DNA from: Acidobacteriota bacterium
Lineage (GTDB): Bacteria; Acidobacteriota; Holophagae; Holophagales; Holophagaceae
Reading direction: 5' to 3'
DNA length: 38,649 bases
Assembly: GCA_018269025.1 (NCBI GenBank)
Contig: JAFDVN010000087.1
Coordinates: forward strand, 1-38,649
Shown: in pieces, positions 1-36,390 of the stretch
Numbering within the stretch: position 1 is the stretch's first letter
Layout: each line of letters begins with the position of its first letter
The notes under the pieces: model-generated
Told to the model about the DNA's origin: nothing
Databases searched by the model: none
Seen by the model: only the letters and a program-made list of their open reading frames with translations
Program-made: the position numbers and the translations under genes

Positions 1-85
1 CGAAGCGGGATCACGGGAGCGTAGCGATCCAGGAACGGTCCCCGCGCGGGGATATGACGCAATGATTGTTTCGAGGGAAGATCCA

Positions 86-1576
86 ATGCCTGTCACGAAA
101 GTTTTGATCGCGAACCGCGGGGAAATCGCCTGTCGCGTGATCCGCACCTGCCGGGAGATGGGCATCCCGACTGTGGCGGTGTACTCCGAGGCTGATCGCG
201 GGGCGCTCCATGTGCGCATGGCGGACGAAGCCTACTTCATCGGCCCTGCCGCGGCGCGGGAGAGTTATCTCGTCGTGGAGAAGATCATCGAAGTCTGCAA
301 GAAGTCCGGCGCGGACGCGGTGCACCCGGGCTACGGCTTCCTCAGCGAGAACGCCGAGGCCGCCAAGCGCTTCAAGGCCGAAGACATCACCTTCATCGGG
401 CCCAACCCGGAGGCCATCGTGAGCATGGGCTCCAAGACCGCGGCCCGCGAAGTGGCCATCGCGGCGGGTTGCCCGGTGGTGCCCGGCATCCAGAAAACGA
501 TGTCCGACGAAGATCTCCTGGCCGAGTCCCAGAAGATGGGCTTCCCCGTCATGCTCAAAGCCGCCATGGGCGGAGGCGGGAAGGGCATGCGCCTCGTGGC
601 GAAACCCGAGGAGTTCGCGTCCTCTCTCGCCCGGGCCCGGGGCGAGGCCCTCAGCTCCTTTGGCGACGATTCGGTCTATGTGGAGAAGGCGATTCTCCAG
701 CCCCGCCACATCGAAATTCAGATATTCAGCGACACCCACGGCAACCATGTCTACCTCTGGGAACGGGAATGCTCCGTGCAGCGCCGGCACCAGAAGGTCA
801 TCGAGGAGGCGCCTTCGCCCCATGTGACGCCGGAGATGCGGAAGGCCATGGGCGAGGCGGCCTTGAAAGTGGCCCGCGCCGTGAACTATGTGGGCGCCGG
901 AACCGTGGAATTTCTCGCGGACGCCGACCGGAACTTCTACTTCCTGGAGATGAACACGCGCCTCCAGGTGGAGCACCCCGTCACGGAATGGATCACGGGC
1001 CTGGATCTCGTGAAGTGGCAGATCCTCGTGGCCAGAGGCGAGAAGCTGCCCATGACCCAGGAGGAGATTCCCCTGAATGGCTGGGCCATGGAATGCCGCG
1101 TCTACGCAGAGGACCCGGACAAGAACTTCATGCCTTCGCCCGGCAAAATCACCTTCCTCCGTATCCCTTCCGGTCGCAATGTGCGGGACGATAGCGGCGT
1201 CTACGAAGGCGCGGATGTGCCCATGTTCTACGACCCCATGATTTCCAAGCTCTCCACCTGGGGGCCGACGCGGTTGGAGGCCATTGACCGGATGCGCGCG
1301 GCCCTCGGTGAGTACCGCATCGGGGGCATCCGCCACAACATCGCCTTCCATGAAGTGCTCATGGAGCACGGCCCTTTCCGGGATGGCGCGCTTCACACGG
1401 GCATGCTCGACAAGCCCTTCTGGAAGAAGAAGGAGCAAGGGCCGAACCTCAAGTTCGCCGTGGCCGCGGCGTTGATGCAGGAGATGGACGCGGAAGAGCG
1501 TCGCGCCGCGAAGCCCGCCAGCACCGAGGGCAAGCCCGATGCCTGGAAGCATTGGGGAAAGTTCAATCAGATCTGA
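86..1576 (+). CDS. accC: Biotin carboxylase subunit of an acyl-CoA or acetyl-CoA carboxylase
   Basis: ATP-grasp enzyme that carboxylates biotin on a carrier protein using bicarbonate and ATP, in the cytoplasm. The N-terminus (KVLIANRGEIACRVIRTC) is the classic biotin carboxylase start. A glycine-rich ATP loop (GGGGKGMR) lies near residue 165 and the metal-binding FLEMNTRLQVEHPVTE block follows around residue 295. I chose ATG 86 because GAGGGAAG precedes it at good spacing; an upstream in-frame ATG at 62 would add eight residues that the family lacks. At 496 residues it is about 45 longer than E. coli AccC. The extra C-terminal part is typical of carboxylases whose carrier is encoded separately, and the carrier follows about 95 bases downstream. 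Acetyl-CoA and propionyl-CoA carboxylase cannot be told apart because no carboxyltransferase gene is present. Confidence 0.93.
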   Translation: MPVTKVLIANRGEIACRVIRTCREMGIPTVAVYSEADRGALHVRMADEAYFIGPAAARESYLVVEKIIEVCKKSGADAVHPGYGFLSENAEAAKRFKAEDITFIGPNPEAIVSMGSKTAAREVAIAAGCPVVPGIQKTMSDEDLLAESQKMGFPVMLKAAMGGGGKGMRLVAKPEEFASSLARARGEALSSFGDDSVYVEKAILQPRHIEIQIFSDTHGNHVYLWERECSVQRRHQKVIEEAPSPHVTPEMRKAMGEAALKVARAVNYVGAGTVEFLADADRNFYFLEMNTRLQVEHPVTEWITGLDLVKWQILVARGEKLPMTQEEIPLNGWAMECRVYAEDPDKNFMPSPGKITFLRIPSGRNVRDDSGVYEGADVPMFYDPMISKLSTWGPTRLEAIDRMRAALGEYRIGGIRHNIAFHEVLMEHGPFRDGALHTGMLDKPFWKKKEQGPNLKFAVAAALMQEMDAEERRAAKPASTEGKPDAWKHWGKFNQI

Positions 1577-1672: not shown

Positions 1673-2200
1673 ATGAAACGCACGGTGATGGTTGGCAAGG
1701 AACAGCACGAGGTCGAGCTCATCCGAAGGGACGGTGTCCTCTCGCTCCTCTGGAATGGCGAGGCCCAAGCCGTGGATCTGATTGAGGTGGAGCCCGGCTG
1801 CTATTCCGTGATCCTTGGCGGTCGCAGCGTGGATGTGCGCCTGGACGCCGCCAAGCATCCTGATCCCGACCTTCGGGCCTTTCGCGCGAGCCTTTACGAT
1901 GGTGCCTACGAGTTCGCGCTCCAGGACCCCATGAAGGCCTTGCTCGCCGCGGCGGGCGGCGCTTCGGTGACCGGCGGGCTGCTCGCCTCGCCCATGCCCG
2001 GCAAGATCGTGAAGGTGCTCGTGAAGGCGGGTGAGACCGTCGCCGAAGGCCAGACCCTCCTCGTGATGGAGGCGATGAAGATGCAAAATGAACTCAAGAG
2101 CCCTTGCGCGGGTTCCGTGACCAAGCTCCATGTCGAAGAGGGCGCCACGGTAGAGACCGGCGCGAAACTGGCGGAGGTTCAGGCCTTCGACGAAGCCTAG
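1673..2200 (+). CDS. Biotin carboxyl carrier protein with C-terminal biotinyl domain
   Basis: 175-residue carrier for the adjacent biotin carboxylase. The last ~75 residues form a biotinyl/lipoyl barrel: MPGKIVKVLVKAGETV, then EAMKM with the biotinylated lysine near residue 136, then the second hairpin ending GAKLAEVQAFDEA. The N-terminal ~95 residues are not an AccB-type Ala/Pro region and look more like the extra domain of propionyl-CoA or pyruvate carboxylase carriers. Start ATG 1673 follows AAGGATTCCCC. The 3' end of this gene, from just before the codon after the biotinyl lysine, is repeated twice downstream with an exact 157-base period, so this copy may itself carry a replaced C-terminus. 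Confidence 0.88.
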   Translation: MKRTVMVGKEQHEVELIRRDGVLSLLWNGEAQAVDLIEVEPGCYSVILGGRSVDVRLDAAKHPDPDLRAFRASLYDGAYEFALQDPMKALLAAAGGASVTGGLLASPMPGKIVKVLVKAGETVAEGQTLLVMEAMKMQNELKSPCAGSVTKLHVEEGATVETGAKLAEVQAFDEA

Positions 2201-2230
2201 CGCGAGGCCTCGCGTAGGCCGAAGGCCTAC
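2201..2230. repeat. Twin palindrome, copy 1, after the carrier gene stop
   Basis: Directly after the TAG stop come a perfect 14-base palindrome CGCGAGGCCTCGCG (2201-2214) and an overlapping 7-bp stem with a 3-base loop, GTAGGCC-GAA-GGCCTAC (2214-2230). The whole block recurs unchanged 157 bases downstream at 2358-2387. Its core GCGAGGCCTCGCG also occurs downstream of tRNA-Gln near 18627. Confidence 0.85.
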
Positions 2231-2237
2231 CGAGAAG

Positions 2238-2357
2238 ATGCAAAATGAACTCAAGAGCCCTTGCGCGGGAACCGTCACCAAACTCCATGTGGATGAGGGC
2301 GCAACCGCGGAGACTGGCGCGAAGCTGGTGGAGGTTCAGGCCCTCGACGAAGCCTAG
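2238..2357 (+). pseudogene. Second copy of the carrier protein 3' end
   Basis: Translates as 39 residues, MQNELKSPCAGTVTKLHV to LVEVQALDEA and stop, matching the C-terminus of the upstream carrier protein. It starts exactly 157 bases after the matching ATG codon (2081) of the full gene and lacks everything N-terminal of it, including the biotinyl lysine codon's domain context. The coding part differs from copy 1 at roughly a dozen positions, while the ~40-base palindromic spacer between copies is identical. No ribosome-binding site of note is present, so I read it as a gene-end fragment rather than a peptide gene. Confidence 0.8.
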
Positions 2358-2387
2358 CGCGAGGCCTCGCGTAGGCCGAAGGCCTAC
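2358..2387. repeat. Twin palindrome, copy 2
   Basis: Identical repeat of the 2201-2230 block: CGCGAGGCCTCGCG followed by GTAGGCC-GAA-GGCCTAC, placed directly after the stop codon of the second carrier fragment. Confidence 0.85.
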
Positions 2388-2394
2388 CGAGAAG

Positions 2395-2505
2395 ATGCAG
2401 AATGAGCTCAAGAGCCCATACACGGGAAGCGTGACCAAGCTCCATGTCGAAGAGGACGCGACCGTGGAGACCGGCGCGAAGCTCGTGGAAGTTAAGGCGG
2501 AGTAA
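2395..2505 (+). pseudogene. Third copy of the carrier protein 3' end
   Basis: Encodes 36 residues, MQNELKSPYTGSVTKLHV to GAKLVEVKAE and stop, again 157 bases after the previous copy. The ending differs from copies 1 and 2 (VKAE rather than VQAFDEA/VQALDEA), so this may be the ancestral C-terminus pushed downstream by insertions. No palindromic block follows it. Confidence 0.78.
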
Positions 2506-2668: not shown

Positions 2669-3784
2669 ATGCGGAAAGCACTCGGCATGCTCCTACTGGG
2701 CGCATCGCTGACCCTCGCGGCCCAGGAAGGTCAATCCTGGGTGGTCGGACAGGTCGGCCAAACCCTGCAGCAGGGCACCAGCAAGGATCTTTACAAGGAT
2801 GGCTTCCACTACGGCCTCGGATTCGGCCACTGGTGGACGGATCGCTGGGGCTTCGATGTAAAGGCGCTTCAGAGCGATCTGAAGGTCAAGTCCGGCATCC
2901 CGTTCAAGGATGACCATGAGCAGATGGCGCTTGGCTCCGTGCTCTTCAATCTGGCTCCTGGTGGGAACTGGTATCCCTACCTCGCCGCGGGCGTGGGCGG
3001 GTCCAAGCTTCCCGAGCCCATGACCAACGACGCGACCAAGCTGAACTTCCATGCGGGCGCCGGCATCATCGGCCACCTGGAGAACGGTTTCACGGTGCAG
3101 GGCGACGCGAAGTATGTGCGGACGAGCCTCCCGGTGGACAACCACAGCGTGATCCTCGCCACTCTGGGCCTCGGCTACACCTGGGGCGCCTCCAAGCCGC
3201 TGCCTCCGCCTCCTCCACCTCCCCCCCCACCGCCTCCAGCTCCTGAGCCGGTAGCGCCTCCGCCGCCGCCTCCTCCGCCCCCGCCGCCTCCGGCTCCGGT
3301 GGAAGAAGCCAAGCCCGCCCCGCCGCCACCCCCAGCCAAAATCGTGCTGGATGAGGCGCGCCTCCACTTCGCCACCAATAAGGCGGATCTGGATGACCAG
3401 GGCAAGCAGGCCGTGCAGGAAGTGGCCGACAAGCTCAAGGCCTACAGCGGCGAATACAAAGTCGTCGTGGCCGGTTACACCGACAGCCGTGGCAGCAAGG
3501 CGCTCAACGAGAAGTTGAGCAAGCGCCGCGCCCAGGCCGTGGCCGACGCGCTCGTGGCCGATGGCATCGCCGCGGACCGCGTGAGTGCCGAAGGCAAGGG
3601 ACCTGCGGATCCCATCGGCGATAACAAGACGGCGGAAGGCCGCGACCGGAACCGCCGTGTGGAGGTGAACATCAAGACCTCTGACGCCAATGTGGAGACC
3701 AACCAGGTCAAGACCGATCACCAGCCGGACGCCGCGCCAACCAAGAAGCCGGCGCGTCGCCACAAGAAGCCCGCCACCAAGTAG
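2669..3784 (+). CDS. OmpA family outer membrane protein with polyproline linker
   Basis: 371 residues. A signal peptide (MRKALGMLLLGASLTLAA) is followed by an ~155-residue OmpA-like beta-barrel rich in Gly and aromatics. Then comes a linker of about 45 residues made almost wholly of Pro, Ala and Glu (nt ~3200-3340), and a C-terminal OmpA peptidoglycan-binding domain (GYTDSRGSKALNEKLSKRRA; NRRVEVNI). A Lys/Arg/Pro-rich tail ends it. The likely role is anchoring the outer membrane to peptidoglycan, with the barrel in the outer membrane. Strong AAGGAGG supports the start, a good promoter precedes it and a hairpin terminator follows, so it is a single-gene transcript. The polyproline tract should need elongation factor P for smooth translation (inference). 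Confidence 0.92.
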   Translation: MRKALGMLLLGASLTLAAQEGQSWVVGQVGQTLQQGTSKDLYKDGFHYGLGFGHWWTDRWGFDVKALQSDLKVKSGIPFKDDHEQMALGSVLFNLAPGGNWYPYLAAGVGGSKLPEPMTNDATKLNFHAGAGIIGHLENGFTVQGDAKYVRTSLPVDNHSVILATLGLGYTWGASKPLPPPPPPPPPPPPAPEPVAPPPPPPPPPPPPAPVEEAKPAPPPPPAKIVLDEARLHFATNKADLDDQGKQAVQEVADKLKAYSGEYKVVVAGYTDSRGSKALNEKLSKRRAQAVADALVADGIAADRVSAEGKGPADPIGDNKTAEGRDRNRRVEVNIKTSDANVETNQVKTDHQPDAAPTKKPARRHKKPATK

Positions 3785-34987: not shown

Positions 34988-36390
34988 AAACACTCCTAAA
35001 AATGCTCATCCCGGCGGTCGTGCTGCTCGCGCTTCCGTCCAGGCTGCTTGCGGGCCAGAAGGCTCAGTCCTTCGTGGCGCCCGGCGCAAACTACACCGAA
35101 ACGATCACGCCCGGCGTGCCGAAGCTGCCCTTCGTCATGGACCACGGCGTGAAGGTCTTCCACCTCATCGCCGAGCCCGTGCGCCACGAGATCGCGCCGG
35201 GCATGGTGATCCAGGGCTGGGGCTACAACGGCTCCATCCCCGGCCCCACCATCGAGGCGGTGGAGGGCGACCGGGTCCGCATCCTCGTCACCAACAAGCT
35301 GCCGGAGCAGACCTCCATCCACTGGCACGGCGTCATCCTGCCCAGCGGCATGGACGGCGTGGGCGGCGTCAGCCAGCACCACATCCAGCCCGGCGAGACC
35401 TACGCCTACGAGTTCACACTCAAACAGCATGGCACGCAGATGTACCACCCCCACGCCGACGAGACGACGCAGATGGCGCTGGGGCAGATGGGCTTCTTCA
35501 TCATCCATCCCAAGCGCGAGCCCCGGCGCATTGATAAGGACTTCGCCATCTTCCTCCAGGAGTGGGATGTGCCGCCCGGCAGCTACGCGCCGAACCCGGT
35601 GACCATGACGGACTTCAACCTCTTCACCTTCAACGGCCGCGCCTACCCGGGCACGGTGCCGCTGATCGTTCAGCGCGGCGACCGCGTCCGCATCCGCTAC
35701 GCCAACCTCACGATGGACTCGCACCCCATCCACATCCACGGGTACGACTTCGTCACGACCGGAACCGATGGCGGCCCCATCCAGCCCGCCGCGTGGGTGC
35801 CGGAAACGACCGTGAATGTGCCCCCGGGCACGACGCGCGACATCGAGTTCACGGCCGTGCATGACGGCGATTGGGCGCTGCATTGCCACAAGGCGCACCA
35901 CGCCATGAACCAGATGAACCATGCCGTCCCGAACCTGACGAATGTGGACCAGGACGGCCTTGCCGAAAAGATCCAGGCCCAGCTCCCAGGCTACATGCCC
36001 ATGGGTCAGAACGGCATGTCCGACATGGCGGGCATGGACATGGGCGGCCCGCCGAACACGCTGCCGATGATGACGGGCGATGGCCCCAAGGGGCCCATCG
36101 AGATGGGCGGCATGTTCACGGTCGTGAAAGTCCGCGATCGCATCCACGGTCAGGAAGATCCGGGCTGGTATCAGGACCCGCCGGGGACACTTGCGCACCC
36201 CGTGGATCTCTCGAAACAGGTCTTCGTGGACCTGCCTGAGGGCGCGCCCGCGCCTGCGCCCAAGCCCGCGAAGCCTCCCATGAAGATGGACGACATGAAG
36301 GACATGGACATGAAGGGGATGGATATGAATGGCATGGACATGAAGGACATGAAGGACATGAAGCATGAAAAGCCCGGGAGGAAGCCGTGA
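34984..36390 (+). CDS. Periplasmic multicopper oxidase with Met-rich tail
   Basis: 468 residues. Signal peptide (MLIPAVVLLALPSRLLA). Copper ligands: SIHWHG, MYHPHAD, the type 1 region SHPIHIHG and CHKAHHAMNQM with the Cys in LHCHKAHH. Likely oxidises Cu(I) to less toxic Cu(II), or oxidises other periplasmic substrates. The last ~40 residues are a Met/Asp repeat (MDMKGMDMNGMDMKDMKDM) that would bind copper. Overlaps the TolC-like gene by four bases and the next gene by four (GTGA). Confidence 0.93.
   Translation: MKTLLKMLIPAVVLLALPSRLLAGQKAQSFVAPGANYTETITPGVPKLPFVMDHGVKVFHLIAEPVRHEIAPGMVIQGWGYNGSIPGPTIEAVEGDRVRILVTNKLPEQTSIHWHGVILPSGMDGVGGVSQHHIQPGETYAYEFTLKQHGTQMYHPHADETTQMALGQMGFFIIHPKREPRRIDKDFAIFLQEWDVPPGSYAPNPVTMTDFNLFTFNGRAYPGTVPLIVQRGDRVRIRYANLTMDSHPIHIHGYDFVTTGTDGGPIQPAAWVPETTVNVPPGTTRDIEFTAVHDGDWALHCHKAHHAMNQMNHAVPNLTNVDQDGLAEKIQAQLPGYMPMGQNGMSDMAGMDMGGPPNTLPMMTGDGPKGPIEMGGMFTVVKVRDRIHGQEDPGWYQDPPGTLAHPVDLSKQVFVDLPEGAPAPAPKPAKPPMKMDDMKDMDMKGMDMNGMDMKDMKDMKHEKPGRKP

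Follow-up and report, generated by a model that had tools for sequence, protein, structure and literature searches.

Hairpin-separated copies of gene ends in Holophagaceae and the probable origin of a tripled biotin carrier gene end

Why does a biotin carrier gene carry its own end three times? We addressed this question in a contig of 38,649 nucleotides from an Acidobacteriota bacterium (JAFDVN010000087.1), analysed over its whole length and referred to as the window. Short palindromic repeats are widespread in bacteria, but little is known about how they spread without damage to genes; in the case described here, the gene is preserved by the layout of the insertion. A copy length common to unrelated loci points to one testable mechanism. 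In addition, the silent ends look used, so that such repeats may let essential proteins exchange their ends (the carrier and, by our reading of translations, UppS, UvrB and S20).

The carrier gene array in the window

The biotin carrier gene (1673..2200, plus strand; an open reading frame of 175 aa with a Pfam Biotin_lipoyl match at 1.8e-21) follows a biotin carboxylase gene (62..1576, plus strand; Pfam Biotin_carb_N, CPSase_L_D2 and Biotin_carb_C). Three copies of the final ~117 coding bases of this carrier were present, starting at 2078, 2235 and 2392 with a spacing of exactly 157 bp. This tripling and its period had been stated in the preliminary description and were confirmed by TRF, which returned a period of 157, 2.7 copies, an 88% match and no indels (2077-2233, 2234-2390 and 2391-2498). 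Every copy began at the AAG codon of the biotinyl-lysine (EAM-K-MQNE) and closed with its own stop codon; since 157 is not a multiple of three, the later copies lie out of frame with the first, as had also been described.

All parts of the array lie on the plus strand. The first copy, S1 (2078..2208), is the expressed gene end, which starts at an A-R-R-A-N-G site (AAGATG) and extends over 131 nt up to hairpin 1 (2209..2234; CTCGCGTAGGCCGAAGGCCTACCGAG). The hairpin comprises 4 bp, a bulged C, 7 bp and a GAA loop, and was assigned from its position, fold z values of -2.9 and -3.6 and covariation in its family. S2 (2235..2365), a silent gene end with its own stop codon recognised by copy comparison, is followed by hairpin 2 (2366..2391), which was assigned by position and has the same sequence as hairpin 1. 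The silent S3 (2392..2505) has no hairpin behind it and is joined to downstream sequence, as indicated by copy comparison and orthologous arrays.

The two hairpins and their flanks were identical, whereas units 1 and 2 differed at 14 of their first 121 bases compared with 0 of their last 36 (hypergeometric P = 0.022). The alignment thus bore out the earlier observation of identical palindromic spacers between differing coding pieces; the contrast is real, but statistically modest. S2 differed from S1 at 13 positions of the compared coding part, 10 of which were third codon positions.

Elsewhere in the window, the next gene (2669-3784) contained a long run of proline codons (PPPPP...) at 3190-3330, between a beta-barrel and an OmpA domain that it connects, and a short tandem repeat, GACATGAAG, with a period of 9-30 occupied positions 36279-36369.

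The hairpin family

The hairpins share one architecture, i.e., CTCG, one bulged C, a stem of 7-8 bp, a triloop and CGAG. Loci were collected with a degenerate pattern (CTCGCGNAT..ATNCCGAG), by which variant hairpins are under-sampled; it matched in 67 of 77 genomes of Holophagaceae, the family of soil and sediment bacteria to which Geothrix belongs, with up to 21 hairpins per genome (e.g., in G. rubra), and the reversed control gave 0 matches. One genome per species was sampled, which hides recent dynamics. In a phylum-wide search of 396 genomes, matches outside the family were few and mostly single, and the listed ones had unpaired inner parts; judged by sequence, the clear cases in this search are confined to Holophagaceae. 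Named matches were overwhelmingly from Geothrix and other Holophagaceae, as were the named relatives recovered via the hairpin of the window, which is itself part of an incomplete genome. No matches were obtained in viral contigs.

In a set of 104 distinct 28-nt hairpins that had not been filtered for pairing, both central pairs of the stem switched between G-C and C-G and were still paired in 98 and 103 of the 104, respectively, compared with about 50 after shuffling; by this sequence measure, the inner stem covaries. An Rfam search with the hairpin returned sub-threshold matches and nothing over the gathering score, and we found no published description of the element in the open-access literature. 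An assembly artefact of one MAG was ruled out, as the same arrays were present in isolate assemblies (Geothrix rubra, fermentans, campi and fuzhouensis) and in the single-contig genome G004. A carrier-specific explanation was ruled out by the occurrence of the layout at many unrelated genes.

Some hairpins lacked a host copy and had a left arm of 14 nt that resembled AGATATCAGTTTGT. These solo hairpins sat either within other repeats between genes or inside genes in frame, in which case the 42 bp lengthen the product by 14 residues (e.g., KSQSVSRIAEGDAE). Solo 42-bp elements in open, coding-like frames were found at L176:5633-5702, in L223 (minus strand, 2538) and at L279:1501, and one tandem pair was found. 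The solo hairpins in L117, L123, L147, L171 and L177 were embedded in a larger dispersed sequence that begins with AGAGTGCCTAAC (AGAGTACCTAAC in L177) and contains GTTAGGC 119-204 nt past the hairpin, which resembles a terminal inverted repeat or an attC-like site.

Copied gene ends at other loci and in relatives

The layout of copy, hairpin and copy (S-hairpin-S) recurred at many unrelated loci. Among hairpins with enough flanking sequence, 115 of 225 were flanked by direct repeats of host sequence, compared with 1 of 1449 control positions. The copies had preferred lengths: the shortest distance from the upstream repeat to the hairpin was 74-79 nt in 20 of 28 loci clusters, the clustering being conservative and approximate. 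The remaining distances were 41, 111, 124-150 and 179-187 nt. Those of 124-150 nt were found at the carrier and a few other loci and those of about 40 nt in a few, the distance of 111 nt came from an array with 68-nt spacing, and those of 179-187 nt may span two units (two ~76-nt units plus a hairpin amount to ~180). The same lengths were found again in loci collected later from other genera. The length bins might reflect wrapping of single-stranded DNA by a binding protein. Readings of the bins as helical turns or as SSB footprints did not fit all of them.

Both 3' ends and 5' ends of genes were copied, and the gene was left intact. The copied 3' ends included that of the carrier and, as we read the translations, presumably those of uvrB and rpsT (with its terminator); the copied 5' ends, presumably of uppS and others, were in reverse orientation. 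The preliminary description had missed that 5' ends and genes other than the carrier are affected as well, and that a host copy together with its hairpin, of a preferred length, seems to form the mobile unit. Its proposal that the spacer is the mobile or recently homogenised part was correct in that the hairpins form a dispersed, probably mobile family, but homogenisation of the spacer only was too narrow a view, as coding ends, too, are homogenised within the genomes of relatives. In G060 (L102:1050-1420), six hairpins followed a gene end at a spacing of about 68-71 bp, with short host copies (~40 nt) and varying loops.

A site motif marked the edges of the copies. The left repeat began with A-R-R-A-N-G and the hairpin was preceded by G-N-G-G-T; past the hairpin, the sequence opened once more with A-R-R-A-N-G or A-R-G-A-N-G, giving the junction CCGAG|ARRANG. 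In the most recent cases, S and S' were identical until 0-9 nt before the hairpin (L126, 75/78; L278, 80/80; L289, 75/79; L018, 120/129). In L285, L057 and L107, the homology between S and S' ended well before the hairpin, often near a gene boundary, and the total length was unchanged; therefore, pure target-site duplication does not explain every case.

In several genera, the orthologous carrier gene had the array at the same AAG|ATG codon, with three copies at 157 in L013, two copies in L016, L018, L019 and L044, a period of 169 in L021 and longer arrays in the genus g11. Only remnants were left in L010, L014, L017 and L023, and L015 was without the array. The comparison with related genomes thus included a single-copy relative, of the kind that the preliminary description had proposed to look for, and it showed the array at the same codon in other genera. 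The last copy of L013 was decayed (a frameshift and 77% identity) and continued into downstream sequence resembling that of the single-copy L015; therefore, it appears to be in its native position. S3 of the window is probably the gene end that already stood there before the insertion. Positions conserved across genera may be old insertions kept by homogenisation rather than signs of current mobility. A separate S-hairpin-S array, whose left arm measured 142 nt, was present at the corresponding MKM codon of a second biotinyl-like carrier gene (ESMKMQIPV motif; L107, L119 and L136).

We considered replication slippage or unequal crossing-over, in which an intergenic hairpin stalls replication, its neighbour is copied in tandem, and the arrays expand, contract and homogenise. 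The tandem arrays of 2-6 units, whose copies were most alike within a genome, and the first two copies of L013, which were 98% alike, agree with this explanation. However, it does not predict that unrelated loci share a preferred distance of ~76 nt, that copies have an A-R-R-A-N-G edge or that the last copy has no hairpin. We therefore consider it unlikely as the origin of the layout, and these processes probably account for the later expansion and homogenisation of arrays.

The silent ends showed a coding constraint. Within one genome, the carrier ends differed at 48 positions, 40 of which were third codon positions (P = 1.3e-12 against one third, and P = 4.3e-7 against a cautious null of 0.48, chosen to accommodate a pair in which one copy is constrained and the other free). 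At the other loci, where frames were assigned from the GC content of codon positions, 87 of 142 differences were at third positions (P = 9e-12 against one third and 0.001 against 0.48); against a null of 0.55, this excess was not significant (0.078). An open frame was kept in nearly all silent carrier ends.

In g11, two clearly different carrier ends were present, A being expressed in L012 and L022 and B in L011, L017 and L020. The two ends alternated within arrays (L012, L020, L022, L011 and L017) and traded the expressed position between species; in L020, the hairpins behind A and B were identical, yet two B ends had different hairpins. The third-position differences and the swapped end types in g11 indicate that the silent ends were probably once in use. 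Most simply, an end may pass from the used to the silent position and back, or it may come from a relative in which it was in use. The earlier suggestion that the coding ends came from different paralogues rather than from plain duplication holds in part: they diverged as working coding sequence, with a third-position bias that agrees more readily with separate histories or exchange than with a single plain duplication. However, the contrast between coding pieces and spacers is not a general rule, because the coding ends in arrays of other species were often near-identical (95-99%).

Homing by DNA uptake, whereby the gene end of a relative integrates with its hairpin at the same gene and displaces the resident end, would explain why silent ends diverge at third codon positions, why homology is lost abruptly at the gene boundary in some loci, and why the A and B ends are common to several species. 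However, outside g11, most silent copies were nearest to the expressed copy of their own genome and not to that of another species, and we regard homing as quite improbable.

A proposed cassette and its comparison with known systems

We propose that the array is, with fair likelihood, an old member of a Holophagaceae-specific family of hairpin-ended mobile cassettes. Such a cassette would consist of an A-R-R-A-N-G site in the gene, a stretch of the gene end (most often ~76 nt, here 131) and the covarying hairpin with one bulged base, and would lie directly upstream of the older end of the gene. Because it adjoins the older end on this side, the gene would stay intact and the displaced end would become a silent spare. 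Cassettes may insert, or arise through local copying, at A-R-R-A-N-G. By analogy with IS200/IS605- or IS91-type enzymes, a candidate enzyme would recognise the hairpin as single-stranded DNA, and it would cut at the hairpin|ARRANG border. Recombination between copies could swap the used and the spare end, and ordinary recombination would later expand, contract and homogenise the arrays. We further suggest, tentatively and as a doubtful extension, a new type of mobile cassette in which an enzyme connects the bulged single-strand hairpin with an A-R-R-A-N-G site at a fixed distance (~76 nt, or a longer or shorter step) and duplicates the intervening host DNA. Every insertion inside a gene would then restore that gene and add a spare end that is silent yet still usable. 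If true, this cassette type would build, over time, a library of exchangeable protein ends.

Four types of enzyme were examined in Holophagaceae genomes, i.e., Y1 and Y2 transposases, reverse transcriptases and integron integrases, and none of them tracked the hairpin. The RAYT/IS200 Y1 transposase (PF01797) was present in 13 of 77 genomes and missing from 64, including G067, with its 21 hairpins, and the complete G004. The IS91 Y2 transposase (PF04986) was found in 21 of 77, but not in G067, G004 or G001, and a reverse transcriptase (DGR, retron or RT-borne; PF00078) in 2 of 16 hairpin-bearing genomes. The integron integrase was at first found in 15 of 16 hairpin-bearing genomes; this link was gone in the whole-family comparison. 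That the arrays are integron cassettes, with the hairpin as an attC-like site handled by this integrase, is very improbable: the layout is cassette-like, the hairpin has one extrahelical base, and the integrase (TIGR02249) exceeded the curated cut-off in 46 of 77 family genomes (L346-L375), but the junction is without GTTRRRY, and the integrase was present in the hairpin-free G003, G013, G015 and G028 and missing from the hairpin-bearing, near-complete G012, G072, G096 and G098.

For REP/RAYT, IS91 and integron attC alike, the hairpin family lacked a defining feature that we checked. Like attC sites, the hairpins follow an open reading frame and form arrays in which the first position is expressed; unlike them, they have no RYYYAAC/GTTRRRY core at the crossover, and integrase and hairpin mismatch both ways. 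IS200/IS605 and IS91 elements terminate in a hairpin that has a bulge or a fixed flank, insert next to a short motif and capture flanking DNA. The cassettes proposed here resemble these elements and Helitrons in their hairpin terminus, with a bulge or fixed flank, beside a short target motif and in the capture of flanking DNA, but no accompanying transposase was found in the Holophagaceae genomes and the copies remain at their own locus. Neisserial dRS3/NIME arrays, in which units of 50-150 bp next to genes alternate with a short inverted repeat, are similarly built; however, the neisserial units are repeats of their own, whereas the units here are the neighbouring gene's own end. The Helitron end bears a hairpin (PMC4778049).

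The hairpins are also like REP/RAYT elements, which are short, dispersed, imperfect palindromes near gene ends and sometimes inside genes (PMC3733652). REP/RAYT are defined with a GTAG (or CGTC) tetranucleotide beside the stem; the CGTC super-family, of which dRS3 is CGTC-1, also includes types without a known transposase (PMC3733652). In contrast, the Holophagaceae hairpins have no fixed GTAG/CGTC tag but a GNGGT flank, or TTTGT in solo forms, and the host gene end beside them is copied at a preferred length. Compared by description rather than by sequence, Rickettsia palindromic elements differ in being ~150 bp long, and the excerpted account of them does not describe S-hairpin-S copies of gene ends; like the solo 42-bp form with its 14 added residues, they are palindromic and lie in frame inside genes (PMC10969869).
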